Assembly (NCBI GenBank): GCA_020438445.1
Contig: JAGQUO010000011.1
Location: 1-36,925 of the forward strand
DNA from: Solirubrobacterales bacterium
GTDB taxonomy: Bacteria; Actinomycetota; Thermoleophilia; Solirubrobacterales; 70-9
DNA length: 36,925 bases
Direction: 5' to 3'
Shown: in pieces, positions 1,390-22,286 of the stretch
Numbering within the stretch: position 1 is the first letter of the stretch
Layout of the letters: the number at the start of each line of letters is the position of its first letter
Translations under genes and position numbers: made by a program
Notes under the pieces: generated by a model
Told to the model about the DNA's origin: nothing
Database searches by the model: none
Seen by the model: only the letters and a program-made list of their open reading frames with translations

Positions 1390-2259
1390 GTGCGACGCGA
1401 GATCGAAATCGCGCCCGGCGTGGCGATGCCGCTGCTCGGCTTCGGCGTATACCGGGTCCCGCCGGGCCACCAGACCGAGCGTGTGGTCGGATGGGCGCTC
1501 GAGGCCGGATACAGACACGTAGACACCGCCCAGGCGTACGGGAACGAGGCCGACGTCGGCCGTGCGCTTCGATCGAGCGGGCTTTCCCGCGACCAGGTTT
1601 TCGTCACGACGAAGTTCAGCGCCGGCCGCCGCGACCCGGAGGCCGAGCTGGAACGCAGCCTCGAGCGGCTCGGCCTCGAGACCGTCGATCTCTATCTTGT
1701 CCACACCCCGCGAGGTGGCCCGCGGCGAGCCTGGCCGGCGATGGAGAGTGCGCATGAGCGGCGGCTGGCCCGCAGCATCGGCGTCAGCAACTTCAGCACC
1801 GCCGAGATTGAGCGACTGCTCCCGGCGGCCGGCGTCAAGCCGGCCGTGAACCAGGTCCAGTTCAGCCCCTTCAGATATCGCCGTCGGCTGCTTGAGTCGT
1901 GCAGGTCCCACGGAATCGAGCTCGAGTCGTACGGCTCGCTGACTCACGGAGAGGAGCTCGACGACCCGACCGTTGCGGATGTGGCACGGAGGCTCGGGCG
2001 GACCCCAGCTCAGGTGCTCCTTCGCTGGGCGATCGAACGCGCCGTCGCGGTGATTCCGAAGTCCGTCCACGAGGACCGGATCCGCGAGAACGCCGCCGTG
2101 TTCGATTTCCAGCTCAGCGGCGAAGACCTTGCACGGCTCGACGGCCTCGATCGCAGCGGAGCTGCTGCGATCGCCGTTGAGAGGCCATGGTGGACGTTCT
2201 CCGCGCGGGCGCGCGCCGCCGCCCGGCGTCTGCTGCGATCGCCGCTGCTTCGCTCCTAG
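1390..2259 (+). CDS. Aldo/keto reductase
   Basis: This is an NADPH-dependent oxidoreductase of the aldo/keto reductase superfamily (TIM barrel), reducing aldehydes or ketones to alcohols in the cytoplasm. The 289 residues give the usual length (about 270-320). The catalytic tetrad is visible as Asp45 and Tyr50 (HVDTAQAYGNE), Lys75 (VTTKF) and His105 (LYLVHTP). The cofactor region near the C-terminus reads VIPKSVHEDRIREN. I chose GTG 1390 because homology begins at once (MPLLGFGVYR); longer starts would overlap the preceding gene in another frame. It begins 16 bases after that gene's stop, so it is probably co-transcribed, and its stop lies one base from the convergent GNAT gene's stop. The basic tail (about 270-289) is unusual. 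The substrate is unknown. Confidence 0.92.
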   Translation: MRREIEIAPGVAMPLLGFGVYRVPPGHQTERVVGWALEAGYRHVDTAQAYGNEADVGRALRSSGLSRDQVFVTTKFSAGRRDPEAELERSLERLGLETVDLYLVHTPRGGPRRAWPAMESAHERRLARSIGVSNFSTAEIERLLPAAGVKPAVNQVQFSPFRYRRRLLESCRSHGIELESYGSLTHGEELDDPTVADVARRLGRTPAQVLLRWAIERAVAVIPKSVHEDRIRENAAVFDFQLSGEDLARLDGLDRSGAAAIAVERPWWTFSARARAAARRLLRSPLLRS

Positions 2260-2260
2260 A

Positions 2261-3316
2261 TCAGATCGCGAAGACCTCGCCGTCGAGGCGGGTGAGCAGC
2301 GATGTGCTCGAGGCGAGCGTCGCATCGAGCTCGCTCCCGGAAGCGCGGAGGATCGGCTGCCGTACGAAGCTCAGCACCGCTCGCTGCCTTCTCAGCGCCT
2401 CCTCGAGATGGGGCTCGGCCCGCCCGGCCACCACAGCGCTGCCACGGCCGCGCGCGTCGGCGACCAGTTCGGACAGCACAAGATCTGCGCTGCGCGCGCG
2501 GGCGGCAAGGTGCAGCACCCGGCTGGCCCCGCCCGGCCGCGACAGATATGCGTACCACCCGATCGGCGACGATCCGCTGTGAACGATGCGGGTCACCAGC
2601 CCGCCCTCGACGTGGTCGACCACCCCCAGGATGTGGTCAAGCTCCGCCTCGTCCCAGTCGACCCGCAGCGAGAGCCCAGAACAGATCGTCGGCAGGGCCG
2701 CGACGACCTGCTGCGCGCTTGCCGATTCGCTCCGGATCGTGCTCGGGGGCGGGTCCGGCCGCAAACGTGGGAGCAGGGACCCCAGCGCCTGCAGGGGCAG
2801 CCCCGGGACCGGAACGAGCCTGCGATCGATCTGCTGCCGGCGAAGGATCGCCTTGATCAGCGTCCATCCCCAGGTCCCAGGGCGCACCGCGAGCATGAAG
2901 TCGGCCGCGCGGGGGTAGTCGACCCTGCCCCCGAACATCTGAAAGATGCGCGCGACCGTGTCCGTCGCCGAGTCCGACCAGGTGAGGTCCTGTGGACCGT
3001 TGAGCATCTGCTTGATCATGAGGGCGCCGAGGGCTCCCGCGCGTGCGTCCGGGTCGACGACGAGCTGTGTGCAGCAGACACCTCGCAGGAGCTCTTCGCC
3101 GCGCCGGAGGCGACGCACCTGCGAGCCCATGAACCCGACCACCTCGCCCGAATCGCTCTCGGCGATCAGGGAGGGGCACTCGTCGTCGGCCCACGGATGC
3201 GCGAGCACGGTCTGCCGCAAGACTTCCGCGTCGAGCGACCAGCCACCGAGATGGGCGCGCAGCAGGGACTCGACGGCCGGCAGGTCGGCCTCTTCGATGG
3301 GTCGGATCGTCGCCAT
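2261..3316 (-). CDS. GNAT-family N-acetyltransferase
   Basis: This 351-residue protein is probably an acetyl-CoA-dependent transferase of the GNAT fold. The first 150 residues hold the fold signature: an N-terminal MATIRPIEEADLPAVESLL strand and helix, a VVGFMGSQVRRL strand, then LVVDPDARAGALGALMIKQML, the acetyl-CoA pyrophosphate-binding segment (normally Q/RxxGxG/A). The C-terminal half (about 200-351) looks like a second, degenerate GNAT-like domain, a layout seen in polysaccharide-locus acetyltransferases. It is divergent from the CelD-like gene at 3404 with 87 bases between the starts. The acceptor could be an amino sugar of the polymer, which is an inference from context. Confidence 0.8.
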   Translation of the reverse strand: MATIRPIEEADLPAVESLLRAHLGGWSLDAEVLRQTVLAHPWADDECPSLIAESDSGEVVGFMGSQVRRLRRGEELLRGVCCTQLVVDPDARAGALGALMIKQMLNGPQDLTWSDSATDTVARIFQMFGGRVDYPRAADFMLAVRPGTWGWTLIKAILRRQQIDRRLVPVPGLPLQALGSLLPRLRPDPPPSTIRSESASAQQVVAALPTICSGLSLRVDWDEAELDHILGVVDHVEGGLVTRIVHSGSSPIGWYAYLSRPGGASRVLHLAARARSADLVLSELVADARGRGSAVVAGRAEPHLEEALRRQRAVLSFVRQPILRASGSELDATLASSTSLLTRLDGEVFAI

Positions 3317-3325
3317 CTCGGGTGG

Positions 3326-3331
3326 AACCTA
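3326..3331 (-). promoter_or_regulatory. -10-like TAGGTT for GNAT gene
   Basis: Read on the minus strand, TAGGTT lies 9 bases before the ATG at 3316, so any leader would be only a few bases. Confidence 0.4.
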
Positions 3332-3391
3332 CAGGCACGGGTCGGCCGGAGGGGATCGCGGCGCGAGCGATCTGGGCGATCGAGCTGCGGA

Positions 3392-3397
3392 TAGGAT
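3392..3397 (+). promoter_or_regulatory. -10-like TAGGAT, leaderless promoter of 3404 gene
   Basis: TAGGAT is followed by 6 bases and GTG at 3404. This supports that GTG as the true start and suggests a leaderless mRNA. Confidence 0.55.
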
Positions 3398-3403: not shown

Positions 3404-4528
3404 GTGAGCGGTGAACGGGAGGTCGGCACGACCGGGGCGGAATCGACGAATCTCGATCAGTGGCGGGAGCTCGCGTGCCGCCGCGGCAACGCGTTTCTGC
3501 TGCCCGAGTGGTTCGCGTGCTGGAATCGGGTGTACGGGGACGAAGGCGGTGAGCCCGCGATCGCAGGCGAAACAGCAGCGGACGGCTCGCTACGCGGGTT
3601 GATGCCCTTCGTGCGGACGGGACACTGCCTCCGGTTCGCGGGGGCGAGCCTCGGCGACAGGTTCGGGCCGGTGGCCGGCGTCGGCGACGAGGATCGCGTC
3701 GCCGCGGCGGCTGCGGCGGCTTTCGACCGCCGCGACTACCTCGTCCTCGATCATGTCGATCGTGGCGCGAGTTGGCCCGGCGCGATCGAAGCGGAGTCCG
3801 GTCGCCGCTTGAAGCGTGTGACGACGCGATACGACGTCCTGCCGTCGATCGAGCTCGACGGGCTGGACTGGGATGGGTTCCTGCGCGGTCGCAGCCGCAA
3901 TTTCCGCAGCCAGATCCGAAGCAAGGAGCGGCGACTGGCGCGAGATCACGAGCTCGACTACCGGCGAACGACTCGACCGGAGGACCTGGATCGCGACATG
4001 GATGCGTTCTTCCGCCTCCACGATGCGCGGTGGACCGACCGCGGGGGGTCGTCGATCGCGACCGAGCGGGCGCGCCGGTTCCATCGCGAGTTCGCCGCTG
4101 CCCTGCTCGAGCTTGGATGGCTCCGCCTCTGGTTCCTCGAGCTCGACGGCGAGGCGGTCGCCGTGTGGTACGGCTGGAATGTCGGCGGTCGCTACGCCTA
4201 TTACCTTGCCGGCCTCGATCCGGACTGGCACCAGCTCAGCGTCGGATTCGTGCTCCTTGCCCATACCGTGCGTGAGGCGATCGCCGAGGGGGCCCGCGAT
4301 TACGACCTCCTTCGCGGCAGTGAGTCTTACAAGGATCGGTTCGCCAGCGATCGCCGCGAGGTCGAGACGATCGTCCTCGCCCCGTCGAGGAGCCGGGCGC
4401 TCGCCGTGGCCCGTCTCGAAGCGATGGCGTGGCGACGGAGCCGGAACATGCCCGCGGGGTTGCGGGCCGCCGGCAGCGGTCTCTACAGGCGGGCGGGACG
4501 GCTGATGCCGACCGCGCGCCGCCGATGA
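3404..4528 (+). CDS. CelD/FemAB-like GNAT acyltransferase
   Basis: This 374-residue protein matches the GNAT subfamily often called CelD or BcsL (Acetyltransf_6 type), common in exopolysaccharide loci and related in fold to FemAB. The central part reads RSRNFRSQIRSKERRL (about 162-177), the conserved basic region of this family. It is followed by DMDAFFRLHDARW and then the GNAT core: WFLELDGEAVAVWYGWNVGGRYAYYLAGLDPDW, with LLAHTVREAIAEGARDYDLLRG and SYKDRF near the C-terminus, all hallmark positions of the family. The product is soluble and cytoplasmic. It probably transfers an acyl or aminoacyl group to a lipid-linked sugar; the donor and acceptor are unknown. It precedes the amidotransferase operon by 66 bases but has a separate promoter. 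Confidence 0.87.
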   Translation: MSGEREVGTTGAESTNLDQWRELACRRGNAFLLPEWFACWNRVYGDEGGEPAIAGETAADGSLRGLMPFVRTGHCLRFAGASLGDRFGPVAGVGDEDRVAAAAAAAFDRRDYLVLDHVDRGASWPGAIEAESGRRLKRVTTRYDVLPSIELDGLDWDGFLRGRSRNFRSQIRSKERRLARDHELDYRRTTRPEDLDRDMDAFFRLHDARWTDRGGSSIATERARRFHREFAAALLELGWLRLWFLELDGEAVAVWYGWNVGGRYAYYLAGLDPDWHQLSVGFVLLAHTVREAIAEGARDYDLLRGSESYKDRFASDRREVETIVLAPSRSRALAVARLEAMAWRRSRNMPAGLRAAGSGLYRRAGRLMPTARRR

Positions 4529-4594: not shown

Positions 4595-5560
4595 ATGAGC
4601 GCTCCGGGCGGCCCGCTGCACGGCTTCGATGCAGCCGCGACGATCGATCGGCTCGCGAGCGAGACCGTCGAGGCCGTCCGCGGCCTCGGCCGCCGTGGAG
4701 CCGTCGTCGCCACATCCGGCGGTATCGACTCGAGCGCCGCCGCCGGCATCTGCGTCCGCGCCCTCGGCGCTGACAAGGTTCAGCTGCTGCGGCTCCCCGA
4801 GCGCGACGTCGGCGATTCCTCGTCCGACCTGGCTCTCGAGCTGGCCGAGTCGCTCGGCGCCGACAGCGTCGAGGAGCCGATCACGGCCGCGCTCGAGGGA
4901 CTCGGTTGCTACGCGCAGCGCGACGAGGCGATCCGTGCCGTCTTTCCCGACTACGAGCCGAGCTGGAAGCACAAGCTCGTCCGCTCGGCACCATCTGCTT
5001 CGATCACCGTCTTCTCGCTCGTCGTCGAACGTCCCGATGGCAGCCGCGAACAGCGTCGGATGCCGGCTGATGCATATCTGACGCTGCTTGCCGCGACGAA
5101 CATGAAGCAGCGGGTCCGCAAGCTGCGCGAGTACACCTGGGCCGACCGGCTCTCGTATGCCGTCATCGGCACGCCGAACCTGCTCGAGTACGACCAGGGC
5201 TTTTTTGTCAAGGGCGGCGACGGGCTCGCCGACATCAAGCCCATCGCGGGCCTCTACAAGGGTCAGGTCTACGCGGTCGCACGCGAGCTCGGCCTGCCCG
5301 ACACGATCGTCAGCCGCGCCCCCACCACCGAGACGTTTTCATTGCCGCAGACGCAGGAGGAGTTCTACTTCGGTCACTCCTACGAGCGCATGGATGCCTT
5401 GATGTGGGGCCACCTCCATGACGTCGACCCCGCCGACCTCGTCGCGGAGGTCGGCCTCAGCGTCGAGGAGATCGAGGCCGCCTACGCCGAGATCGAGCGC
5501 CGGCGTACCGCCACCGCCTACCTGCACGCGCCGGCGGTGCTGTTCGCTCGGGAGGCCTGA
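4595..5560 (+). CDS. NAD synthase-like ATP-dependent amidotransferase
   Basis: This protein belongs to the NadE family, which adenylates a carboxylate and replaces AMP with ammonia. It has 321 residues, near the length of ammonia-dependent NadE, and no glutaminase domain. The PP-loop is intact (SGGIDSS, 41-47). The second conserved block is also present (about 193-215): GTPNLLEY, then GFFVKGGDG, DIKPI and LYKGQVY. The stretch that in true NadE reads near QTDE-x-ELG is instead QTQEEFYFGHSYERMD (about 252-267), so the substrate-facing part is altered. It is the first gene of an operon with asnB-like, ACP, acyl ligase and O-antigen ligase genes, with a 1-base gap to the next. A role in amidating a glycan or acyl-ACP precursor fits better than housekeeping NAD synthesis, though the latter cannot be excluded. 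Confidence 0.83.
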   Translation: MSAPGGPLHGFDAAATIDRLASETVEAVRGLGRRGAVVATSGGIDSSAAAGICVRALGADKVQLLRLPERDVGDSSSDLALELAESLGADSVEEPITAALEGLGCYAQRDEAIRAVFPDYEPSWKHKLVRSAPSASITVFSLVVERPDGSREQRRMPADAYLTLLAATNMKQRVRKLREYTWADRLSYAVIGTPNLLEYDQGFFVKGGDGLADIKPIAGLYKGQVYAVARELGLPDTIVSRAPTTETFSLPQTQEEFYFGHSYERMDALMWGHLHDVDPADLVAEVGLSVEEIEAAYAEIERRRTATAYLHAPAVLFAREA

Positions 5561-5561
5561 G

Positions 5562-7532
5562 GTGTGCGGCATCGCGGGCATCGTCCGCGCCGACGAGGGG
5601 GAGGCGGTCGAGGAGAGGGCGTTGCTCCGGATGGCTCGCGCGATTCGCCACCGCGGCCCCGACGGCTTCGGGCTCCTGCTCGATCCTGGCGCGGGCCTCG
5701 TCTCAACACGGCTCTCGATCGTCGACCTCGAACACGGCTGGCAGCCGCTCGTCGCAGCGGGGGACGACAGCGTGCTCGTCTACAACGGCGAGGTCTACAA
5801 CCATCCGGAGCTGCGCGAGTGGCTCCGCTCGCGCGGTGTCGTGTTCAGGACCAGAAGCGATACCGAGGTGGTTCACGCCCTGCTCGAGTACGAGGGTCCG
5901 GCCGGTCTCGACCGGCTCAACGGCCAGTTCGCGCTCGCCTGGTGGCAGCCGCGCCGGCGCCGGCTGACGCTGGTCCGCGACCGCTTCGGGGTCCGGCCGC
6001 TGAGCTTCTCGTTCCGCGAGGATGGGACCATCGTCTTCGGATCGGAGACGAAGGCGCTGTTCGCCTCGAACGAGGTTCGGCCGGAGGTCGATCTCGCCGG
6101 CCTCGATCAGGTCTTCACCCTGTGGGCGCCGCAGGCGCCGCGGACGGTCTTCGCCGGTGTCGACCAGCTCGAGCCCGGGGGCCTGCTCGTCTGGGAGCGT
6201 GGCGAGGTGATCGAGCGACGCCGGTGGTGGCGAGCCGGACCTGATCAGGAAGATCCCGTCGAGGATCTCGAGGCGCTGATGCGGGACAGCGTCGGCTTGC
6301 GGTTGCGCGCTGACGTACCCGTCGGCGCCTATCTCTCCGGCGGTCTCGACTCGAGCGTGATCAGCGCTCTCGCGCAGGTCGAGAAGGCGGGCGAGCTTCG
6401 GACCTTCTCGGTCGCCTTCGACGATCCGACCTACGACGAACGTGCCGAGCAGGAGCTCGTCGCCCGGGCGCTGGGAACCAGCCACCACGTCGTCGAGGCG
6501 GATGCCGCGGCGATCGCCGCGGCGTTTCCGGACGTGATCCGGCACGCCGAGACCCCGCTCGTCCGGACCGCGCCGGTCCCGCTCTACCTGCTCGCTCGCG
6601 AGGTCCACGACCACGACCTCAAGGTGGTCGTCACCGGTGAGGGCGCGGACGAGCTCTTCTGGGGCTATGACCTGTTCAAGGAGGTCGCAATCCGCAGTCG
6701 CCATCGCGACGACCCCGAGCGGGCGATGGAGCTGCTCGGCGAGCTCTATCCCCATCTCGGCGGCAGCGCCGCACGTCGCGGCCCCGGTTGGGCGCGTTTC
6801 CTGCTCGCCGCCGGCGCCGGTGGCGATTCACTCGCCTCGCACATGACGAGGGTCGATGCGACCGCATCGGTTCGTGCTTTCTACCGCGACGACATCGCAG
6901 CCGGGCTCAGCGTCGATGCCGCATTGGAGCCGATTCGGGACGGTCTGCCCGAAGGCTTCTCGGAGCTGGACGAGCTCGAGCGGGCCGCATGGCTCGAGGT
7001 GACGACGCTGCTCGAGCCGTACCTGCTAGCGGCTCAGGGAGACCGGGTGGCGATGGCGCACGGAGTCGAGGGGCGCTATCCGTTTCTCGACCACCGCGTC
7101 TACGCTCGCTCGGTCGCTCTGCCGGAATCGGAGAAGCTGACCGACACCAGCGACAAGGTCGCCCTCCGCCGGCTTGCGGGGAAGCTCCTGCCCAAGTCGA
7201 TCTCGACCCGCCGCAAGCAGCCGTACCGTGCACCCGAGGTCGTTCCCTTCTTCGCCCCTGGGGCCCCCGGCTGGGTCGAGGAGGCACTGGCCCCGGCCGC
7301 GCTCGAGGAGGTCGGGATCTGGGATCCCCGCCGGGTCGAGGGACTGTTGCGCCGCTGCCGCAGCGGCCGCGCGAACGGAGTCCGCGAGGGAATGGCGCTG
7401 ATCGGGATTCTCTCGACCCAGGTCTGGCACGAGATGTTCTTCGGCGGCGAGGGCGAGCAGCCCGCCGAGACGGCCGTCCCTGCAGTAAGAATCGACCGTA
7501 CGGTCGACCAATCGATGAGCGAGGTTTCATGA
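5562..7532 (+). CDS. asnB: Glutamine-dependent asparagine synthase-like amidotransferase
   Basis: This 656-residue class II amidotransferase has two domains. The N-terminal Ntn glutaminase begins VCGIAG, so Cys2 becomes the nucleophile after Met removal; this fixes the GTG start at 5562, one base after the previous stop. The C-terminal synthetase carries the pyrophosphate loop SGGLDSS (259-265), then TGEGADELFWGYD and GVEGRYPFLDHR. Asparagine synthases make Asn from Asp. In polysaccharide loci, homologues (for example the amidotransferase of exosortase-associated EPS clusters) are thought to amidate sugars or acyl groups instead. Its neighbours, ACP and acyl ligase, favour that role. The stop overlaps the ACP start by 4 bases. 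Confidence 0.9.
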   Translation: MCGIAGIVRADEGEAVEERALLRMARAIRHRGPDGFGLLLDPGAGLVSTRLSIVDLEHGWQPLVAAGDDSVLVYNGEVYNHPELREWLRSRGVVFRTRSDTEVVHALLEYEGPAGLDRLNGQFALAWWQPRRRRLTLVRDRFGVRPLSFSFREDGTIVFGSETKALFASNEVRPEVDLAGLDQVFTLWAPQAPRTVFAGVDQLEPGGLLVWERGEVIERRRWWRAGPDQEDPVEDLEALMRDSVGLRLRADVPVGAYLSGGLDSSVISALAQVEKAGELRTFSVAFDDPTYDERAEQELVARALGTSHHVVEADAAAIAAAFPDVIRHAETPLVRTAPVPLYLLAREVHDHDLKVVVTGEGADELFWGYDLFKEVAIRSRHRDDPERAMELLGELYPHLGGSAARRGPGWARFLLAAGAGGDSLASHMTRVDATASVRAFYRDDIAAGLSVDAALEPIRDGLPEGFSELDELERAAWLEVTTLLEPYLLAAQGDRVAMAHGVEGRYPFLDHRVYARSVALPESEKLTDTSDKVALRRLAGKLLPKSISTRRKQPYRAPEVVPFFAPGAPGWVEEALAPAALEEVGIWDPRRVEGLLRRCRSGRANGVREGMALIGILSTQVWHEMFFGGEGEQPAETAVPAVRIDRTVDQSMSEVS

Positions 7533-7804
7533 GCGCAGCAGCCGATGGTGACGAGAACGTCCGCACCGAGATGCGGGCCTTCATCGAGGACAACTTCCTC
7601 TACCTGGACCCCGAGGCGGATCTCGCCGACGACCAGGATCTGCTCGCGGCCGGAATCGTCGACTCGCTCGGCTTCGTCGAGATCGTCGAGGAGGTCGAGG
7701 CGCGCTACTCGGTCGGGGTTCAGGACGTCGAGATCACCGAGGAGAACTTCGGCTCGGTCGATGCGATCGCCCGCTACGTCGAGCGAAAGCGAGCGGGGTC
7801 CTGA
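7529..7804 (+). CDS. Acyl carrier protein
   Basis: The product is a small acidic four-helix carrier protein of 91 residues. The phosphopantetheine site is Ser46 in GIVDSLGFVEIVEEVE, where DSL is the expected motif. It would hold an acyl or aminoacyl group as a thioester for the acyl ligase encoded next to it. Its ATG overlaps the asnB-like stop (ATGA), so the two are translationally coupled. It is an isolated ACP with no fatty-acid or polyketide synthase genes nearby, which is typical of dedicated modification modules in EPS loci. Confidence 0.93.
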   Translation: MSAAADGDENVRTEMRAFIEDNFLYLDPEADLADDQDLLAAGIVDSLGFVEIVEEVEARYSVGVQDVEITEENFGSVDAIARYVERKRAGS

Positions 7805-7869
7805 TAGCGACGGTCCTCGCCGATGATCTGAGGGCGGTCGCGGCGGCTCGCCCGGGCGACGCTGCGATC

Positions 7870-9312
7870 GTGACGGCCGAGGAGGAGGTCAGCTATGCCG
7901 ATCTCGACGCCCGCGTCGATGCCGCTGCCCTCGAACTACGTCGCCTCGGAGTCGGACGTGGAGATCGAGTCGCCGTGGTCATGTCCAACGGCGTTTCGAT
8001 GGCAGTCGCCGTCTATGCGATCCTCCGCGCCGGCGCTGCGTTCTCACCGATCAGTCCCGAGATTCTGCCACCGAAGCTGGAGCGGATCCTGGTCGATGTC
8101 GGCGCTGCGGCCGTCGTCTGCGAGCCGAAGACGCGAGACAAGGTCGTGGCGGCGGCGCCGCCTGAGGTGACCGTCGTCGACTCGAGCGCCGCCCCCGGCG
8201 CCACCGGTGAAGACCCCGACGGAGGCTTCACGCCGATGGTCGCGCCCGACCTCGCCGCCGTCATCTACACCTCGGGCTCGACCGGTGAGCCGAAGGGGGT
8301 GACGCTGACTCACGGCAACATGGCGTTCGTCGCCGACTCGATCATCGATAGCATCGACATGAAGCCCGCCGATCGCGTCCTCTGCGTCCTTCCGCTCTAC
8401 TTCGGTTACGGCCTCTACCAGCTCTTGACCTGCGTCCGCCTCGGGGCAACGCTCGTCCTCGAGCCCGGTTTCGGCGCCGGCGGCAGGATCGTCCAGATCC
8501 TCGAAGAGCAGCGCATCACGGGTTTCGCTGCGGTGCCGACCATCTATCAGCTCCTGCTCTCGCTGCCCGGGCTCTCCGACCGTGAGCTGCCGCACCTGCG
8601 CTTCCTCACCAATGCCGGGGCCGGTCTGCCGACGCCGGTCGTTCGTGCGGTCCGCGAAGCGTTCCCGCAGGCGCGCCTCTACCTGATGTACGGCCAGACG
8701 GAGTGTCAGCGAGTCTGCCGACTGCCGGCCGAGGACGTCGACGAGAACCCGTCATCGGTTGGCGAGGCTATCCCCGGCACCGAGGCCTGGGTCGAGGACG
8801 AGGACGGCGAGGTGGCGGCCCCCGGTGTCGTCGGAGAGCTCGTCGTCAGGGGCCCACACGTAATGCAGGGCTACTGGGGGAACGAGGAGGCGACCGCGCG
8901 GCGCCTGCGCCCTGGCCGCTGGCCATGGGACCGGTTGCTTGCGACCGGTGACCTGTTTCGGGCCGACGAGCGCGGCTACCTGTACTTCGTCGGCCGTCGC
9001 GACGACATCATCAAGTCGCGCGGGCAGAAGGTTCCGCCGCGGGAGGTCGAGGACGTGTTGCACTCGTTCCCGGGCGTCCGCGACGCCGCTGTGGTGGGGG
9101 TTCCCGATCAGCTTCTGGGCGAGGCCGTGATCGCCCACGTTTCGCCGGATCACGGAATCGAGCTTGACGGGAACGCGCTCCGCCGCCATTGCGCGGAGTC
9201 CCTCGAGGGTCACATGGTGCCCAAGCGCGTTGTGATCCATGCGGAGCTGCCACGGATCGGAGCCGGGAAGATCGACCGGCGTGCCTTGGCCGGCTGGTCT
9301 CCACCCCGATGA
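7870..9312 (+). CDS. AMP-forming acyl-CoA/acyl-ACP ligase
   Basis: This ANL-superfamily adenylating enzyme activates a carboxylic acid with ATP and transfers it to a thiol, here probably the adjacent ACP. Core motifs are visible: TSGSTGEPKG (about 134-143), YGQTE in the A5 region, TGDLFRADERGYLYFVGR with DDIIKSRGQK (A7-A8) and the catalytic lysine region GAGKIDRRAL near the C-terminus. The first ATG/GTG/TTG in frame is GTG 7870, which begins abruptly at EEEVSYADLD. About 20 further in-frame codons back to 7801-7804 (LADDLRAVAAARPGDAAIV) look like the family's normal N-terminus. The real start may therefore be a rare CTG at 7801, overlapping the ACP stop. The C-terminus overlaps the next gene by 4 bases. 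Confidence 0.91.
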   Translation: MTAEEEVSYADLDARVDAAALELRRLGVGRGDRVAVVMSNGVSMAVAVYAILRAGAAFSPISPEILPPKLERILVDVGAAAVVCEPKTRDKVVAAAPPEVTVVDSSAAPGATGEDPDGGFTPMVAPDLAAVIYTSGSTGEPKGVTLTHGNMAFVADSIIDSIDMKPADRVLCVLPLYFGYGLYQLLTCVRLGATLVLEPGFGAGGRIVQILEEQRITGFAAVPTIYQLLLSLPGLSDRELPHLRFLTNAGAGLPTPVVRAVREAFPQARLYLMYGQTECQRVCRLPAEDVDENPSSVGEAIPGTEAWVEDEDGEVAAPGVVGELVVRGPHVMQGYWGNEEATARRLRPGRWPWDRLLATGDLFRADERGYLYFVGRRDDIIKSRGQKVPPREVEDVLHSFPGVRDAAVVGVPDQLLGEAVIAHVSPDHGIELDGNALRRHCAESLEGHMVPKRVVIHAELPRIGAGKIDRRALAGWSPPR

Positions 9313-11351
9313 TCTTCGACGCCGGCGCGGTGCGCCGCCGACCCGAGCTGATTCCGGGCCTGCTCGGATTGGCCGCGTTCATAGTCCTCGCGACGTCCGG
9401 AGGCGGCTGGGAGGTGACCGGCTGGGCCCCCGCAGGCCTGTTCATGCTCGGCCTCCTGGTCGCTGCGGGGTTCTCGTACCGGAGCCGGCTCCGCGGGCTC
9501 GATCGCGTGAACCTGATCGCGATATCGCTACTCGGCGGATTCGTCCTCTGGAGCTTCGCCTCGATCATCTGGGCGGATGTCCAGGGGACGGCCCTGGAGG
9601 CAGCCAATCGCGCCCTCGCCTACCTGATCGTCTATGCGGTCTTCTCGCTGGTCGCCTGGCGGGCGGACTCGGCGATGATCGTCCTCGCGGGTTACGCCCT
9701 CGGGCTTGTGGTCATCGGAGTCGTGGTGCTTGCAGAAGCAGCCGACTCCTCGGAGGCGGCCCTGTCGCTCGTCAACGGCCGGCTCGCCGAGCCGACCGGC
9801 TACGCGAACGCCGCTGCAGCACTGTTCATCGGCGGGTTCTGGCCGGCGGTCCACATCGCCTCGCGGCGCGATGTCCCCTGGCCGGCCCGTGCCCTGATGC
9901 TCGCGACCGCCGGATTCCTCGTCCAGATCGCGCTGATGCCCCAGAGCCGGGCATCGCTGATCGTGATCCCGTTCGCCTTGCTCCTCTACATGCTGGTGAC
10001 GCCGAACCGGATCCGGGCCGCGATCTCGCTCGGTCTGGTGCTTGCGGCGACGGCGCTCACGGCACCCGCGGTCCTCGACGTCTATGCGATCGCCTCCGAC
10101 GGCGGCGACGTCGGCGCGGCATTCGGTTCGGCCCGCAACGCCATGTTGATCTCCGCCGTCGCCTTGCTCGCCATCGGGAGCGTCGTCGCGCTGGCCGACC
10201 GCCGCCTCGAGATCGGCGAGGCGACCGCGCGCGTGGCGGGGCGGGTCGGCCTTGCCCTGAGCATCGCAGCCGCCGTCGTCGGGCTCGGAATCGCCGTCGT
10301 CGCACTCGGCGATCCCATCGATTGGGGAAGCGCACGATGGAGCGACTTCAAGGGCGACTACGACGAAGGGGGTTTCGGGTCGTCCCGATTCAGCGGCGAC
10401 CTCGGCAGCGGTCGCTACGACTTCTGGGACGTGGCACTGACCGACGAGTTCGCCGATTCCCCGATCCTGGGTTCCGGAGCCGACAACTTCGCCGCCGACT
10501 ATCTGCAATACCGAAACACCGGCGAAGAGCCTCTCTACCCGCACAGCCTCCCGATCAGAATCCTCGCCGGAACCGGACTCGTCGGCGCGGTGCTGTTCGC
10601 CGGGTTCGTCATCGCCGCGATAACGGCCGCGGTGCGGACCCGAGCGCGGGCGCCTGATCCGCTCGGGCGTGGCGTCGCCGCGGTTGCACTGGCTACCGCA
10701 GGCTACTTCCTGCTGCACAGCAGCGGCGACTGGCTCTGGACGTTCGCTGCCATCGCCATGCCGGCGCTGGCCTGGCTGGGAATCGCCGGTGGCGGCCTGC
10801 GCGGCAGCGGCGCGCAGGCCCGCCCGGCACCGATGGGGCTGAAGGTCGCTGCGTTCGCAGTCGCCGCCACGCTCACGCTCGCAGCCGCTGTCGCGCTGGC
10901 GCTTCCGTGGATATCTGCACGGCTCACCGACAGTGCCGCGGCCGGTTGGATCGACGACCCGCAAGCAGCCTTCTCGAGGCTGAAGACAGCCAGGGACCTG
11001 AATCCGCTGTCCGCCCGCCCGGATCTGGTCGCGGGCACGATCGCTGTCCGCGACGGCCGGCGTGGCACAGCAGCGGCCGCATTCGCTCGAGCCGCGGCCC
11101 GTGAGCCGACCAACTGGTATGCCCGGCTCGAGCTCGGAGCGCTCGAGATCGCAGGGGGCGACCTGCGCCGAGGGGAAGCGGAGTTGCGGCGGGCCAGAGC
11201 GCTGAACCCGAGGGAGCCGTTGATCGCGATGGCACTCCGCCGGGCTCGCGGCGATCGACCGCTGACGACAAGGGAGATCGATCGCGAGCTGGTTCGTCGG
11301 GTTTGCGCCCGGGTGGGACCGACGCAAACCACCCGCTATTGCAAGGATTAG
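9309..11351 (+). CDS. O-antigen ligase/Wzy-type membrane protein with C-terminal TPR-like region
   Basis: This 680-residue integral membrane protein has about a dozen hydrophobic segments in the first 540 residues. The large outer loop contains GSGADNFAADYLQY and PHSLPIRILAGTG, which correspond to the Wzy_C / O-antigen ligase signature (a G-x-G-x-x-x-F segment followed by an H-S/N-x-x-L-x-x-x-x-x-x-G segment). The C-terminal 120 residues are soluble with repeats of the type DPQAAFSRLKTARDLNPLSARP and AAARAPT-like helices, resembling TPRs. Such ligase-TPR fusions are known among EPS and S-layer glycan polymerases. The ATG at 9309 overlaps the acyl ligase stop (ATGA), which sets the start. It should polymerise the repeat unit or transfer the glycan to an outer acceptor. 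Confidence 0.87.
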   Translation: MIFDAGAVRRRPELIPGLLGLAAFIVLATSGGGWEVTGWAPAGLFMLGLLVAAGFSYRSRLRGLDRVNLIAISLLGGFVLWSFASIIWADVQGTALEAANRALAYLIVYAVFSLVAWRADSAMIVLAGYALGLVVIGVVVLAEAADSSEAALSLVNGRLAEPTGYANAAAALFIGGFWPAVHIASRRDVPWPARALMLATAGFLVQIALMPQSRASLIVIPFALLLYMLVTPNRIRAAISLGLVLAATALTAPAVLDVYAIASDGGDVGAAFGSARNAMLISAVALLAIGSVVALADRRLEIGEATARVAGRVGLALSIAAAVVGLGIAVVALGDPIDWGSARWSDFKGDYDEGGFGSSRFSGDLGSGRYDFWDVALTDEFADSPILGSGADNFAADYLQYRNTGEEPLYPHSLPIRILAGTGLVGAVLFAGFVIAAITAAVRTRARAPDPLGRGVAAVALATAGYFLLHSSGDWLWTFAAIAMPALAWLGIAGGGLRGSGAQARPAPMGLKVAAFAVAATLTLAAAVALALPWISARLTDSAAAGWIDDPQAAFSRLKTARDLNPLSARPDLVAGTIAVRDGRRGTAAAAFARAAAREPTNWYARLELGALEIAGGDLRRGEAELRRARALNPREPLIAMALRRARGDRPLTTREIDRELVRRVCARVGPTQTTRYCKD

Positions 11352-11518: not shown

Positions 11519-11809
11519 GTGAAGTCGAGAATGATTCTCAGCACGATTGTCTTGGTCGTTGCGCTGGCGGTCGCTCCCGCGGCGTTCGCCAACAACTCGT
11601 CGGTCGGCACCTATGGGGGCCAGGGCGGCGAAGTTGCCGGCTCCGTTGCCGGTGGCGAGGCGACCGACCCGGGCACTGCGGCATCGAACAGCAGCGCGCT
11701 GCCGTTCACGGGGCTCGATCTGAAGTTGCTTGCCGGTGGCGGCCTGTTGCTGCTGCTGGGTGGCTTCGGCATGGCTCGCATGGCCGGTCATCGCGAGGAT
11801 GTCCTTTAG
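11519..11809 (+). CDS. Miniature secreted protein with LPFTG sortase signal
   Basis: The 96-residue product has a complete Gram-positive cell-wall sorting layout. There is a signal peptide (1-24, hydrophobic core then AAFA cleavage site), a mature part of only about 36 residues rich in Gly, Ser and Ala, the sorting motif LPFTG (61-65), a hydrophobic stretch (about 68-84) and a short tail with Arg and His. After processing it would leave about 40 residues on the wall or as a lipid-bound peptide. LPXTG is the class A/B type of motif, while class E sortases usually favour LAXTG. The only sortase in the window is at 32024-32710. It may be a small surface scaffold or a glycan acceptor (Ser, Asn and Thr are plentiful); that is inference. 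Confidence 0.8.
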   Translation: MKSRMILSTIVLVVALAVAPAAFANNSSVGTYGGQGGEVAGSVAGGEATDPGTAASNSSALPFTGLDLKLLAGGGLLLLLGGFGMARMAGHREDVL

Positions 11810-14767: not shown

Positions 14768-15703
14768 TCATCCGTAGCCGAAGACCTTTCGGTGACGGCT
14801 GGTGGCTTCCCGCACCGTGGTCGCCTCTTCCTCCGTCAGGATCGATCGCCAGCGCTCGTCGAGGACGATCTCATTCGAGTTCGACAGGCGCATCCGATTG
14901 CCGATGATGTGGTGATCGCTCGCCAGGAGCTGATATGGGCCCTCGATCCTCTCGAGGTCGAGCATGTCGCAGATCCTCCCGAACTCACGCTCCGGGTTTT
15001 CGCAGAAGTCCTCGTAGCGGATCCGCAATCGCCGGCTCGGGGGCAGCGACGTGAGCAGCTCTTCCGCCCACGCGCTGCGCTGGTTCCAGTGACGGGTCGC
15101 GTTCCCGATCCTGCCGCCCCTGGCGGCGCGGCGGTTCTTGCCGGCCCGGGACTTCTTCGAGGCGACGAAGCCGAGTGAGTCCCGGACGAGGTGGATCACG
15201 TAGGGATCGAGATCGGTCGTGCTTGCGAGAAGACGGACGCGGCTGACGCTCTTGGATGCATCGGCGAACACCGGCTTGCCCGTGACCGACCGCGCAGCAG
15301 CGACCAGAGCCTCGTTGCGGCGAGCGATTTCGCGCAGATGGCGTCCGAGAAGGGGTGCGTGGGCGGCTACCGCTCCGCGCGTGACATCGGCCCGGCGATT
15401 TGCGAGGAGCCGCCGACCGGCTCGTGTGCCTGGGTTGTAGCTCATTCGCCAATGCTCGGGGTCGAATCGCATCCCGTGGGCGGACATCTCCACCCCGACG
15501 GCAGTCCAGAAGGGGCATTCGGCCAGGGTGGTGCCGCATGAGCACGGGTATTGGTTCGGGTCACGCCAGTTGCTGAGGTTCGGATCGCATTCGCCGACGC
15601 TGACGATCTGCGGGTGCAGGTTGAGGAGAAACGACAAGAGCGTCGATCCGGTGAACGATGTTCCGACGACATAGAGGAAGCGCTCCCGCGCTCGCTCATT
15701 CAT
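14768..15703 (-). CDS. Sulfotransferase (family 1), second gene of pair
   Basis: This is a PAPS-dependent sulfotransferase of 311 residues, moving sulfate from 3'-phosphoadenylyl sulfate to a hydroxyl or amine. The 5'-phosphosulfate loop is GTSFTGSTLLS (14-24) and the 3'-phosphate region reads VIHLVRDSLGFVASKKS. A Cys-rich patch lies near residues 54-64 (YPCSCGTTLAECPFW), as in several bacterial polysaccharide sulfotransferases. The C-terminal half has LRIRYEDFCENPE, a conserved late motif. Its start overlaps the stop of the upstream sulfotransferase by 4 bases (ATGA), so the two are co-translated. No signal peptide is seen, so it should act in the cytoplasm, on lipid-linked units or precursors. 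Confidence 0.89.
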   Translation of the reverse strand: MNERARERFLYVVGTSFTGSTLLSFLLNLHPQIVSVGECDPNLSNWRDPNQYPCSCGTTLAECPFWTAVGVEMSAHGMRFDPEHWRMSYNPGTRAGRRLLANRRADVTRGAVAAHAPLLGRHLREIARRNEALVAAARSVTGKPVFADASKSVSRVRLLASTTDLDPYVIHLVRDSLGFVASKKSRAGKNRRAARGGRIGNATRHWNQRSAWAEELLTSLPPSRRLRIRYEDFCENPEREFGRICDMLDLERIEGPYQLLASDHHIIGNRMRLSNSNEIVLDERWRSILTEEEATTVREATSRHRKVFGYG

Positions 15704-16623
15704 GCTTGGCCATCAGGTGAGGTGGTCTCCGAGTCCGGAGCTCTCGTGGGTTCGGTGGCGGCGCTCTCCGTGCGTTGCATGAACTCGATGACGCGGTCTC
15801 CCTCGGCGTCGGTCAGGTGCTTTCGCCAGGTCTGGGTCGAGTCGTAGAACTCGGTTTCTTCGATCACCCGTTCGAACTTCGGGGTCCATTCGAGCTCCGC
15901 GAATCGGCAGATCATGCGCATCGTGGCCTCCGGCTCAGTGATCAGCCGCTCGTAGGTGAGCTCTTGGACGCGCCCGGGAAGCTGTGCCGAATTCGCCGCG
16001 ATGTCGTCGAGATCGAGGCGAATCTTGAGCGCCGTCGACAATTGCGGTCCGCCCCCGAGATCGCTCCAGGTCGCCATGTAATGGTCGGGTACCTCTCCCC
16101 ACTGCCAACCGGGGCTGCCGGGGGCGCTGGTGACGTCGAGCCAGCCCGCCTTGATCCAGGAGCTGACTACCGACCGCGGATCGCGCTGCAGGAAGAGGAA
16201 GCTCGCATCGGGATAGATGCGATCGAAGTAGGCCATCCGGGCCCAGCCGGTGACCTTGACCAAAAGCCGGCTCCGCCCGTGGAAGTGCAGGATCCTCGCG
16301 GTTGCGGAGCGGACCGGGTCCAGCCAGTCCGGGTTGAGGTCATCGGGCACCTGCGGGCTCTGGCGGCGCGAGAACCCCGGCAGGTACTCCTCCCAGAACC
16401 GATAGGCCTCAAACGGCTTTGGAAAAGCCTTCGCCTCCTTCATCCTCCGAGGTAGGGGAGCTGCATAGAGCCGCGAGAATGCCGAGAGCCAGTGCTGACG
16501 CGGAAAGGTCTCGTTGAAGGTCGAGAGCCAGCCCAGGGCTTCGTGGAAGGCGAGGACGCGGTGGAGGAACGTCGATCCGCAGCGGCCGGTGCCGACGATG
16601 ATCAGAGGGCGTTGCCCAGACAT
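15700..16623 (-). CDS. Sulfotransferase (family 3 type), first gene of pair
   Basis: This 307-residue PAPS-dependent sulfotransferase has its phosphosulfate loop right at the N-terminus (IIVGTGRCGSTFLHRVL, about 8-24). FLFLQRDPRSVVSSWIKAGW supplies the 3'-phosphate-binding Arg and Ser. VQELTYERLITEPEATMRMICRFAEL is the usual C-terminal YExL region. ATG 16623 is chosen because the motif begins 8 residues later; the longer reading to 16728 adds an Arg-rich stretch of no family character. It differs clearly in sequence from its partner, so the pair are probably specific for different positions or sugars. Confidence 0.89.
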   Translation of the reverse strand: MSGQRPLIIVGTGRCGSTFLHRVLAFHEALGWLSTFNETFPRQHWLSAFSRLYAAPLPRRMKEAKAFPKPFEAYRFWEEYLPGFSRRQSPQVPDDLNPDWLDPVRSATARILHFHGRSRLLVKVTGWARMAYFDRIYPDASFLFLQRDPRSVVSSWIKAGWLDVTSAPGSPGWQWGEVPDHYMATWSDLGGGPQLSTALKIRLDLDDIAANSAQLPGRVQELTYERLITEPEATMRMICRFAELEWTPKFERVIEETEFYDSTQTWRKHLTDAEGDRVIEFMQRTESAATEPTRAPDSETTSPDGQA

Positions 16624-16630
16624 TCGGCAA

Positions 16631-16636
16631 AAACTA
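16631..16636 (-). promoter_or_regulatory. -10-like TAGTTT, leaderless promoter of sulfotransferase pair
   Basis: On the minus strand TAGTTT is followed by 7 bases and ATG 16623. It stands in an unusually AT-rich patch, and no Shine-Dalgarno sequence is present. Confidence 0.55.
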
Positions 16637-16850
16637 ACACCCGATGCGCGCCCCGTGACAACGCAGTTGCGACGTGGGCGGTCAGGTCGTGGACGAACGT
16701 CCGGTCGCTGCTCGGTTGCTTCGGCCACCGGGAGTGCCTTCCGATAGCGGTGGGGACCAAGGGTGGATACCCGCTCGCGGCCGCTGAACGGATCGGATCA
16801 TCTCCAAGCTCGCAAAGATCGCTGCATGTGCACTCGCCGGGCTGGTCGCG

Positions 16851-18219: not shown

Positions 18220-19275
18220 TTGGGACACCGTCTGCAAGCCCTGCTGCCACTCGCGCTCGTCGCGATCGTGCTGGGTGCGGTCTTCGGCGGTGCGGGAAGC
18301 GGAGAGGACCACGCCACGCCCACGGTCAGCGACAGGGAGCCCGCGGCGAAAGCCCCATCGCCGAGGATCGAATGTGACGCCGTTCTCGCCGTCGGAGATG
18401 AAGCTGCGGATTTCATCGCTGGGCTGGACAGCGGTGAGACCGGCTGCCTTCGCGGTGGAGTGCACGAAGCCGACGGTGTCGTTTCGATCACGGCGCCCGA
18501 CGTCGAGCTGACCAGCTATCCCGGCGAGAGGGCGACGCTCAGGGGCCGGCTCTGGGTCGAGCCCGAAGCCGATCGGGCGGTCGTGGCCGGGCTCACTCTC
18601 GATGGCCGGAATCCGGAGTCCAAGCCCAGCCCGACCGTGAATGCGGACGGCGTGGTCCTGCGCGGCAACGAAATCAGCAACAGCCACACGACGATCTGCG
18701 TGAGCGTCAACGATTACGGGGGGGAGCCGCCTCCGCGCGGGGTCGTGATCGAAGACAACGTGATCCACGACTGCGGCGAGCTTCCGGCCACCAACCACCA
18801 TCACGGGATCTACGTGGCTGACGCGGAAGGCACGGTGATTCGCGACAACCTGATCTACGGTAATGCCGACCGCGGGGTGCAGCTCTATCCCAATGCCGAT
18901 GACTCGGTCGTGACCGGGAACATCATCGACGGCAATGGCGAGGGCGTGATCTTCGGCGGGGGACCGGAATCGTCCTCCGACGACAACCTCGTCGCCAACA
19001 ACGTGATCACCAACTCGACGATCCGCTGGAACATCCAGTCGAGCTGGCAGGGACCGGTCGGATCCGGCAACGTCGCCCGCGACAACTGCGTCTGGAGCGA
19101 GCGCGGGGGCTACTACGGAGGAGGGGACCCGCGAGGCAGCGGGATCCAGGAGATGGACAGCGCCCGGGCATTCGACAACCTCGTGGCCGACCCCGGCTAT
19201 GCCGACGTCGCCGGCGGCGACTACAGCTTGAGCGCCAGCAGCCCCTGCCTGGATGTCCTCGGTTCACATCCGTGA
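18220..19275 (+). CDS. Secreted right-handed parallel beta-helix protein, paralogue without RTX tail
   Basis: This 351-residue paralogue of the preceding gene has a full N-terminal signal or anchor sequence (LLPLALVAIVLGAVFGG, about 8-24) after a TTG start. It shares the CLRxGxH/Y region, LTSYPGERATLRG, the ATNHHHGIYV motif and the long near-identical rung block with copy 1. The two proteins end the homology at SASSPCLDVLG, after which this copy stops four residues later while the other continues into the RTX-like tail. The product would be released or membrane-held without a calcium-binding module. The fold is clear; the activity is unknown. A TTG start with no Shine-Dalgarno sequence suggests modest expression. 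Confidence 0.86.
   Translation: MGHRLQALLPLALVAIVLGAVFGGAGSGEDHATPTVSDREPAAKAPSPRIECDAVLAVGDEAADFIAGLDSGETGCLRGGVHEADGVVSITAPDVELTSYPGERATLRGRLWVEPEADRAVVAGLTLDGRNPESKPSPTVNADGVVLRGNEISNSHTTICVSVNDYGGEPPPRGVVIEDNVIHDCGELPATNHHHGIYVADAEGTVIRDNLIYGNADRGVQLYPNADDSVVTGNIIDGNGEGVIFGGGPESSSDDNLVANNVITNSTIRWNIQSSWQGPVGSGNVARDNCVWSERGGYYGGGDPRGSGIQEMDSARAFDNLVADPGYADVAGGDYSLSASSPCLDVLGSHP
18751..19122 (+). repeat. Tandem duplicated coding block, copy 2
   Basis: This is the partner of 17310-17681, collinear over 372 bases. See that entry for the comparison. Confidence 0.85.
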
Positions 19276-19342
19276 GCGACCGGTATCGCAGTCGTCGACG
19301 GGCCGGCTCGTTTCCGCGGCACGCATTACGATCCTCCGCCTG

Positions 19343-20140
19343 ATGCTCAACGAACGTTTCCGAATCCGCGTTCGGCGACGGCTCGGCCTGCCGGTCAAGG
19401 CTCCGGCAGGGTGGAGTGCCGGTCCGCCGGACTTCGTCGGCGTCGGCACCCAGCGGTCGGGCACCACGTGGTGGTTTCGCCAGATCATCCGCCACCCCGG
19501 GATCGTCGCTCCCTGGGGTAAGGAGAGGCATTACTTCGATCCGTTCTGGGGCGAGGCGTTCTCAGCCGAGGACCGGGAGGCGTACGGGGAGCTCTTTCCC
19601 CGTCCGGCCGGAGCACTGACCGGGGAATGGACTCCCCGGTACATGTACGACCCCTGGGCGCTACCGTTGCTGGGCGAGGCGGCTCCCGATGCCCGGATCC
19701 TGGTCCTGCTGCGTGACCCGTGGAGGCGCTTCCTCTCCGGAGTGGCGCACGAGGAGCGGGTCCTGGCGCGCGACCTCGGTCGATCGAACGGCGATTACCT
19801 GCGGCTGATGATCAGACACGACGCCCTGCAGCGCAGTCTCTACGCCGGGCAGATCGAACGCATCAATACCTATTTCGATCCCGCCCGCGTCCTGATCCTC
19901 CAATACGAGCGGTGCGTGAACGATCCGGACGCGGAGTTGTCGCGAACGCTCTCGTTCCTCGGACTCGATCCTCCCGAGTCCGGGCTCGAGGTCGACCGGC
20001 GTGCTCCCGCCCCGCCGCCGGCGTCGGGACTGCCGTCAGCCGTCGAGGAGGACGTGCGGGCGCAGCTGGCCGCCGACGTCCGCGCGCTGGTCGAGCTGGA
20101 GCCCGAGATCGATCCTGAGCTCTGGCCGGAATGCAGGTGA
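19343..20140 (+). CDS. Sulfotransferase (heparan/glycolipid type)
   Basis: This 265-residue PAPS-dependent sulfotransferase resembles the NDST/heparan and Stf0-like group in its core. It has the loop FVGVGTQRSGTTWWFRQI (about 31-48), then HPGIVAPWGKERHYFD, GEWTPRYMYDP and ARILVLLRDPWRRFLSG, the 3'-phosphate motif. The GExxPxY and KExHYFD blocks are typical of enzymes acting on glycosaminoglycan-like chains. ATG 19343 is chosen because the longer reading to 19253 would overlap the preceding gene; TACGAT lies 10 bases upstream. The stop overlaps the next glycosyltransferase by 10 bases, so the two are co-expressed. Confidence 0.88.
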   Translation: MLNERFRIRVRRRLGLPVKAPAGWSAGPPDFVGVGTQRSGTTWWFRQIIRHPGIVAPWGKERHYFDPFWGEAFSAEDREAYGELFPRPAGALTGEWTPRYMYDPWALPLLGEAAPDARILVLLRDPWRRFLSGVAHEERVLARDLGRSNGDYLRLMIRHDALQRSLYAGQIERINTYFDPARVLILQYERCVNDPDAELSRTLSFLGLDPPESGLEVDRRAPAPPPASGLPSAVEEDVRAQLAADVRALVELEPEIDPELWPECR

Positions 20141-21297: not shown

Positions 21298-22224
21298 TCA
21301 GCCCGACGCGATCCGATCTGACTCTTCGAGCCAGGCGGTGAGATCGAGGCCGATGAGCTCGCGCAGCTCCCGGCACTGGTTCTCGACCTCGGGCAGGAGG
21401 GCCGCGGCCACTGCCGGCGGGATTCGGCCTCGTGGGCGGTTTCGGGTGTTGAGACGGGACAGCCGCGACTGGAGCCACTCCCGTGAGTCCTCTGTCGTGA
21501 CCACCCGCAGCGCCCTTCGAACCGACGTCGGCGGGCGCTTCACGAGGCGCTGAAACCCCGGAACGCGGGCCTCCTTGTTCGCGTTGACGATGCGGATCTC
21601 CGGATCGAAGTCCGAATCCACCCCGAGAAACCGGCAGACCCCGCGGAATGCGCCTGCGGTGTCACGCTTGAAGTCGTCGAAGACGACGATGTGAATGCTC
21701 TCCCGTCCGAAGAGATCGAAGTAGGCCTTGAGCTGCTCCGCGTAGCGGAACGCCGACCGGTAGGACGCCGGCGGGAATCCGGGGGGTGCGCCACCCCGCA
21801 CCCTCTCCTCGTCGAGTGCGAGCGCCGATTCGAGATCGCGCACCGGCTCGATGCCCATGTGCACGAACTCGGAATGAAGCGCCGGTACCGCCGTGATCGG
21901 ATTCCGGATCATCGCGATCAACTGCGCGTCCGGGCGAAACGCCTTGATCCGCTCGCCGCTCCCTCGCGAGTACAGGTACCAGACTGACGCCTCTCCAAGG
22001 CGACGGCCCTGAAGCGTCTCGAACCAACTCAGGTACTCGGTTAGCGTCTTGCGGCGCCGACCCGGATGCATCTGTTGACGCCCGAAGAGCTGATCGTCGG
22101 CGAAGAAGTGGGTCTCCTTCCGCGGGCACATGCCGATCTCCGGGTGCTGCCCGAGATAGTCGGCGAGCGCGCTGGTCCCGCACTTCGGGGCACCGATGAG
22201 AAAGAAGTCCGGTCCGCGGGTCAT
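21298..22224 (-). CDS. Sulfotransferase (family 1, heparan-type)
   Basis: This PAPS-dependent sulfotransferase of 308 residues has the loop FFLIGAPKCGTSALADYLGQHPEI (about 7-30), a KETHFF block, GEASVWYLYS, and the 3'-phosphate strand AQLIAMIRNPITAVPALHSEFV. HIVVFDDFKRDTAGAFRGVCRFLGVD is the late motif found in heparan sulfotransferases and their bacterial relatives. ATG 22224 is preferred because family members begin with a P-D-F-F-I-I-G-type strand just after Met; ATG 22254 would add 10 residues. It lies 62 bases after the flippase gene on the same strand, with a possible promoter of its own between them. It ends convergently 12 bases from the glycosyltransferase at 21285. Confidence 0.89.
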   Translation of the reverse strand: MTRGPDFFLIGAPKCGTSALADYLGQHPEIGMCPRKETHFFADDQLFGRQQMHPGRRRKTLTEYLSWFETLQGRRLGEASVWYLYSRGSGERIKAFRPDAQLIAMIRNPITAVPALHSEFVHMGIEPVRDLESALALDEERVRGGAPPGFPPASYRSAFRYAEQLKAYFDLFGRESIHIVVFDDFKRDTAGAFRGVCRFLGVDSDFDPEIRIVNANKEARVPGFQRLVKRPPTSVRRALRVVTTEDSREWLQSRLSRLNTRNRPRGRIPPAVAAALLPEVENQCRELRELIGLDLTAWLEESDRIASG

Positions 22225-22234
22225 GGGCCCTGGG

Positions 22235-22240
22235 ATTATC
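22235..22240 (-). promoter_or_regulatory. -10-like GATAAT before sulfotransferase
   Basis: GATAAT reads on the minus strand 10 bases before ATG 22224. The surrounding 13-mer CGATAATCCCAGG (22229-22241) is repeated exactly before the BY-kinase gene at 29782-29794. Confidence 0.45.
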
Positions 22241-22286
22241 GCGAAGCTCTTCATCGTTCCGGGGCCGACAGCGAAACTCGGATGTC

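Follow-up and report, generated by a model that had tools for sequence, protein, structure and literature searches.

A NAD synthase-like gene that recurs with AsnB-like, carrier-protein and acyl-ligase genes probably belongs to an undescribed amide-group pathway

Among described systems, the Wbp/Vim linking sugar of Porphyromonas gingivalis is the nearest experimental precedent for the genes considered here. In that pathway (PMC7468200), the AsnB-type amidotransferase WbpS and the GNAT/FemAB-type protein VimA help make an amidated, aminoacylated linking sugar, and the authors note similar clusters with exosortases. The companionship of AsnB and acyl-ligase genes is likewise already known from exosortase-associated loci. 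Here we describe a locus of a soil-type Solirubrobacterales bacterium, contained in a window of 36,925 nucleotides (the whole stretch of DNA analysed; contig JAGQUO010000011.1, assembly GCA_020438445.1), in which a gene for a NadE-like protein lies beside genes for an AsnB-like amidotransferase, a stand-alone acyl carrier protein (ACP) and an adenylate-forming ligase. This four-gene set, termed the cassette below, recurs across phyla, and its gene annotated as a NAD synthase probably belongs to an undescribed amide-group pathway, for which decoration of surface sugar chains is the most likely role. The likeness to the Wbp/Vim pathway lies in an AsnB-type amidotransferase and a GNAT/FemAB-type acyltransferase for decorating a surface sugar. 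In contrast, the passages of PMC7468200 consulted mention no ACP, acyl ligase or NadE-like enzyme.

All four genes lie on the + strand. The first encodes a NadE-like ATP-pyrophosphatase of 321 amino acids (4595..5560), assigned to the PRK00876/NF002048 subfamily by its NF002048 match and carrying an SGGIDSS motif. Its stop codon (5558-5560) is separated by a 1-base gap from the GTG at 5562 that opens the gene of the AsnB-like glutamine-dependent amidotransferase (5562..7532, 656 amino acids; TIGR01536, with Asn_synthase and GATase_7 domains). That gene in turn shares an ATGA overlap (7529-7532) with the gene of the 91-residue ACP (7529..7804; PF00550), whose GIVDSLG sequence marks the phosphopantetheine site. 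The adenylate-forming acyl/aminoacyl ligase (PF00501, 297 bits) follows at 7801..9312, with its start uncertain between CTG 7801 and GTG 7870. The latter is the first ATG, GTG or TTG of the open reading frame (ORF), yet homology reaches upstream to ~7813, so that initiation at CTG 7801 or another non-standard codon is possible.

Scanning GTDB returned at least 578 confirmed NadE-like relatives, of which the best 80 loci, many on short contigs, were examined for partner genes within ~10 kb using profiles built from these loci. They span Proteobacteria, Planctomycetota, Acidobacteria, Actinomycetes, Chloroflexi, Bacteroidetes/Ignavibacteriae and myxobacterial lineages. Inspection of the 80 loci reveals an AsnB gene near the NadE-like gene in 66, a ligase gene in 70 and an ACP gene in 68, with all three in 57 and none in 4; stricter thresholds give 65, 68 and 68, and again 57 with all three. 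This contrasts with 13 canonical nadE loci from genomes of the window's class, searched alike as a control, where we found no AsnB, no ACP and just three weak generic AMP ligases. Such clustering goes well beyond what chance would give: all three partners are found together at 57/80 loci versus 0/13. Within a 299-genome sample of the class, a PRK00876 protein over cut-off occurs in 11 genomes, and all 10 other than the window's own carry AsnB, ACP and ligase beside the NadE-like gene, in more than one arrangement (11/11 with the window). Gene order is strongly shuffled among the 80 loci, a sign that function rather than position is conserved. Across 63 loci, the four proteins also show correlated pairwise distances (r 0.36-0.76; permuted maximum, 0.16).

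The same set travels on plasmids. The NadE-like gene was found in 116 plasmid records, mostly Sinorhizobium, and the four genes form one run in eight plasmid loci (Sinorhizobium, Mesorhizobium, Shinella, Rhizobium and Azospirillum). On pSymB of Sinorhizobium meliloti the order is asnB - ACP - ligase - nadE, as it is in Shinella, Mesorhizobium and Rhizobium; phages gave no match. A preliminary description of the locus, made from the window's sequence, had treated recurrence of these families in other genomes as decisive, and for the NadE-like, AsnB-like, ACP and ligase families the neighbourhood survey bears this out.

The NadE-like protein (Pfam family PF02540) scores 406.6 bits against NF002048 (cut-off 313) and, more weakly, 123.4 bits against TIGR00552 (cut-off 63.65), and it fails to reach the NadE equivalog models NF010587 and NF001979 in the NCBIfam profile search. 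Its structure model (predicted local distance difference test, pLDDT, 93.6) adopts the NAD-synthetase fold over the whole chain, with Z of 28-29 to the NH3-dependent NAD synthetases of H. pylori (1xng) and P. horikoshii (2e18) and the NMN synthetase of F. tularensis (3fiu). Shared with NH3-dependent NadE are the SGGIDS pyrophosphatase motif and the GDG and KPIA.LYK.Q regions; the motif, as SGG.DS, is present in 91/91 members of the NadE-like family. The differences are an identity of ~20-29%, the segment PTTDTYS..QEEF where canonical NadE has P-S/T-A-D/G-L, and a family-specific insert of ~55 residues. This insert (~residues 103-160) comprises one helix and three strands, is found in relatives as well, and sits between the two halves of the protein, in place of the short link seen in compact NadE enzymes. 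The spacing from GCY to KQR is 62-67 residues in every NadE-like member measured. A different substrate might bind at the insert, or the ACP might dock there.

Unlike canonical NadE, the NadE-like gene adjoins AsnB, ACP and ligase genes in most loci, and the class genomes that carry it encode a canonical NadE as well. The window's genome encodes a full-length NadE on another contig, and each of the 11 PRK00876-bearing class genomes has a separate full-length canonical NadE (expectation value, E, 1e-63 or better). The preliminary description would have fallen had the NadE-like gene been the organism's only NAD synthase, but it is not the only candidate for that role. Because a separate full-length NadE is encoded in all 11 genomes, the cell should be able to make NAD without the NadE-like gene.

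A similar question arises for the AsnB-like protein, which has a Cys at position 2, carries SGGLDSS and GEGADE motifs and scores 438.8 bits against TIGR01536 (cut-off 267.1). No other gene of the window's genome matches TIGR01536 over cut-off, and some family members exist without any AsnB over cut-off. Among 12 genomes checked, none has an asparaginyl-tRNA synthetase (AsnRS) over cut-off, and 11 have GatB over cut-off. In the window's genome gatB is seen only as a fragment at a contig edge (G000:C52:6-404), and its apparent loss there was dismissed as an assembly gap. With no AsnRS over cut-off and GatB present, translation should not need free asparagine; by these gene inventories its asparagine most likely comes from the tRNA-dependent route.

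The ACP scores 29.4 bits against PF00550 (cut-off 20.8), its phosphopantetheine serine lying in GIVDSLG, and gives weak sub-cut-off matches to the AmcB, OlsHI-ACP and DltC models. A stand-alone ACP is shared with DltA-DltC type, cispentacin and ornithine-lipid ACP systems. The cassette differs from these systems in that all of these model matches are sub-cut-off and in that two amidotransferases and a GNAT are added. Dlt-type systems have a dedicated adenylating ligase. For the window's ligase, TIGR03098 of the exosortase-A group is the best-scoring named family (398.3 bits), below its cut-off of 592.35; the AsnB-like protein similarly scores 348.7 bits against the exosortase-A family TIGR03108 (WbpS type), below its cut-off of 816.9. 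The exosortase companionship noted in the preliminary description is supported in that TIGR03108 and TIGR03098 are among the nearest named relatives of the two proteins, although neither protein reaches the cut-off. That description had also seen no exosortase, and indeed PF09721 has no match in the window's own genome, which is 95% complete. The cassette and the exosortase-A families have the same protein kinds and the company of polysaccharide genes in common. They are set apart by scores well under the cut-offs, by the additional NadE-like protein and tandem GNAT, and by the lack of an exosortase in this genome. As for the acid activated, alignment to linear gramicidin synthase domains places a Gly of the ligase's A4 motif (PLYFGYGLYQ) where the adenylation (A) domains of nonribosomal peptide synthetases (NRPS) have Asp. 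The window ligase thus lacks the A4 Asp that binds the alpha-amino group in NRPS-type amino-acid-activating A domains, and its acid is probably not a standard alpha-amino acid, judged by what is known of this motif.

Two acyltransferase genes lie 5' of the set. The tandem-GNAT gene (2261..3316, - strand; 351 amino acids) is transcribed divergently from the + strand operon, and its product, recognised from its predicted fold, has no Pfam match at E 1e-3. An overlying ORF at 2129-3394 (+) was discarded as a spurious frame. Homologues of the tandem GNAT adjoin the cassette in Thermoleophilia and in rhizobial plasmids, that is, in two phyla, with E down to 1e-29 against the proteobacterial copies. 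The best structural match of its model (pLDDT 83.5) is N-myristoyltransferase (Z 20.5, root-mean-square deviation 5.0 over 307 residues, 12% identity). This likeness reflects a common fold and is no proof of function; such a protein would supply the acyl-transfer activity otherwise missing from the set. The second gene encodes a PF13480 acyltransferase of FemAB/GNAT type (3404..4528, + strand; 123 bits) and ends 66 bases upstream of the NadE-like gene on the same strand. Relatives lie near the NadE-like gene in 11/80 loci, and the protein has no match to the FemAB family TIGR03019 (VimA-like) at E 0.001.

Other partners recur less often. An SGNH-like protein, a label that is our own reading of a sequence without a Pfam match, is near in 14/80 loci, and an acyltransferase-like partner of any kind (tandem GNAT, PF13480 type or SGNH-like) in 44/80. 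A PrmC/HemK-like methyltransferase is near in 16/80 loci and is found also in Mesorhizobium ciceri and S. meliloti, hinting at N-methylation of the amide product; one such gene (L120:10957-11913) scores 187.9 bits, just under the PrmC cut-off of 199.1. A second PrmC-like gene of the window's genome (C48), with only 150 bits to the cassette methyltransferase profile, does not lie near the cassette and was set aside. AcpS is near in 7/80 loci, which fits carrier maturation. Actinobacterial cassettes, from Nocardioides, Mycolicibacterium, Propionibacteriaceae and Microbacterium (L074, L079, L080, L098, L100, L102, L104), add both a phosphopantetheinyl transferase of AcpS type and the SGNH-like protein.

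Downstream, the ligase gene shares an ATGA overlap (9309-9312) with the gene of a membrane protein (9309..11351, + strand) that combines Wzy_C (O-antigen ligase/polymerase; PF04932, 43.2 bits) with TPR. The preliminary description had counted this protein as the glycan ligase that ends a five-gene operon and attaches the product. Its five ORFs are confirmed, all on the + strand, with their positions and families and the gap and overlaps it reported. Its choice of boundary does not survive comparison: the Wzy-TPR protein is not conserved with the set, is unattached to the four genes in more distant relatives, and was rejected as a cassette member; it is a neighbour in this genus. The adjacency is a species-level accident, and the conserved 5' neighbours, the tandem-GNAT and PF13480 genes, had been missed. 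For the transfer step, the tandem-GNAT N-acyltransferase is a better candidate than Wzy-TPR. In two sister species, a gene for a GlxA/galactose-oxidase-like secreted protein lies between the ligase and Wzy-TPR genes (L043:5487-7385, L044:9522-11393); the window does not have it.

The window as a whole is a polysaccharide locus (Wzx/Wzy/Wzz), and recognisable polysaccharide genes occur in at least 42 of the 80 loci, ~19 of exosortase type, with a polysaccharide deacetylase recurrent among them. On S. meliloti pSymB (L127/L130), homologues of two cassette partners, a GNAT and a PrmC/HemK-like protein, are paired ~12 kb from the cassette and adjoin a GumC/O-antigen ligase/glycosyltransferase cluster. 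The window's locus further holds four genes of the sulfotransferase family and encodes a protein with a D-glucuronyl C5-epimerase domain (14768-16728, 19253-20140, 21298-22254, 24601-26595), a content which suggests that this Thermoleophilia-type actinobacterium has a sulfated uronic-acid polysaccharide. A small secreted protein conserved in the genus (11519-11809, + strand) ends in LPFTG and a hydrophobic tail, an LPXTG-type sortase signal, and the genome's only sortase match falls in the same window (~32051-32410, within 32024-32746, - strand); the polysaccharide locus may include sortase anchoring.

From gene content, catalytic motifs, folds, recurrence and the presence of a separate NAD synthase gene in the same genomes we infer a route whose chemical steps, order, substrate and acceptor are conditional throughout. 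The ligase would adenylate a carboxylic acid and load it onto holo-ACP. The AsnB-like enzyme would hydrolyse glutamine and amidate one carboxylate, and the NadE-like enzyme would adenylate a carboxylate and amidate it with ammonia, or would make another amide. In some cassettes the PrmC/HemK-like enzyme would then methylate the product, plausibly at the amide nitrogen. Finally, the tandem-GNAT or PF13480 acyltransferase would move the acyl group from ACP to its acceptor, and the product would thereby be placed on the glycan. Our tentative proposal, which we rate at slightly under even odds, is that the conserved cassette, usually with an acyltransferase, builds an acyl or aminoacyl group that bears an amide and is bound to ACP, and then passes this group to an amine, in most cases an amino sugar in a surface polysaccharide.

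Several observations weigh against this proposal. Ligase distances follow those of the other three proteins least well, suggesting ligase replacement among cassettes. The A4 Asp position varies among cassette ligases (Asp in 29, Ser in 14, Gly in 12 and others in the rest; n=80), so that different cassettes may activate different acids. Only ~25/80 loci have a recognisable tandem GNAT, several rhizobial cassettes sit among sugar-transport or cell-division genes with no glycan genes nearby, and neither biochemistry for any cassette member nor a deducible substrate was found. An ordinary pair of NAD and asparagine synthases, arranged by coincidence, is nevertheless barely credible. Public annotation does call the gene nadE, NAD(+) synthase, consistent with its TIGR00552 score, and the genome offers no other AsnB over cut-off; but a separate NadE in 11/11 genomes, GatB in relatives with no AsnRS over cut-off, family members that lack any AsnB over cut-off, and a set that recurs across phyla but is missing around canonical nadE led us to reject housekeeping roles, the last already refuting coincidence.

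Two other explanations accept the cassette as a functional unit. The amidotransferases might act on the sugar rather than on an ACP-bound acid. A WbpS-like AsnB would then turn a uronic acid residue into a uronamide and NadE would amidate a second carboxylate, while ligase, ACP and GNAT would add an aminoacyl or acyl group to the amino position, giving a linking or repeat-unit sugar of the Wbp/Vim kind. We consider this a serious but rather doubtful account. After the generic AsnB model, the AsnB-like protein is closest to exosortase/WbpS-type amidotransferases, although the TIGR03108 cut-off is missed; the C5-epimerase-domain protein of the window fits a uronic acid in the glycan, and the recurrent deacetylase points the same way. 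PMC7468200 adds that P. gingivalis WbpS is needed for the uronamide, that VimA sets which amino acid is added, and that exosortase genes have VimA-like, deacetylase and AsnB genes clustered with them. Such chemistry sits poorly with standalone rhizobial cassettes that have no sugar-polymer genes nearby, and it leaves the pairing of two amidotransferases and the PrmC-like methyltransferase unexplained. Alternatively, the cassette could make a small molecule in free form (an amide-bearing solute, signal or chelator) through a minimal carrier-protein pathway, polysaccharide genes being common genomic context. Complete cassettes (GNAT, AsnB, ACP, ligase and NadE) in Shinella, Mesorhizobium NBSH29 and Rhizobium ACO-34A, amid ABC transporters or minCDE and with no glycan genes beside them, are what it would lead one to expect. 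We judge it unlikely, since polysaccharide genes of different types recur within ~10 kb of the cassette in unrelated phyla, and the GNAT and PrmC-like pair of S. meliloti adjoins a polysaccharide export/glycosyltransferase cluster.

We return to the proposal of an ACP-bound amide group and its reach. No description of the four-gene set, or of its combination of a PRK00876 NadE-like protein with a tandem GNAT, was found in the open-access literature searched, and the founding paper on PEP-CTERM lacks the terms looked for in it; subscription journals lie mostly outside that search, and this absence is not proof. There is a sizeable chance that the PRK00876 NadE-like family is a new enzyme class. 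It is quite possible, if short of probable, that what many bacteria carry as a PRK00876 'NAD(+) synthase', the S. meliloti pSymB copy included, is no NAD synthase but belongs to its own class of amide synthetase, which would work together with AsnB on an acid bound to ACP. The tandem GNAT would then transfer the group, and the whole would be a so far undescribed pathway of amidated acyl decoration that crosses phyla. Cultured bacteria amenable to laboratory work carry the cassette (S. meliloti, Shinella, Pseudoxanthomonas and Azospirillum); on pSymB it is a free-standing operon of four genes. If the proposal is true, many genomes contain a gene whose annotation as NAD synthase misses its actual job, and these bacteria would possess an unreported carrier-protein route that puts amide-bearing groups on surface sugars or small molecules.

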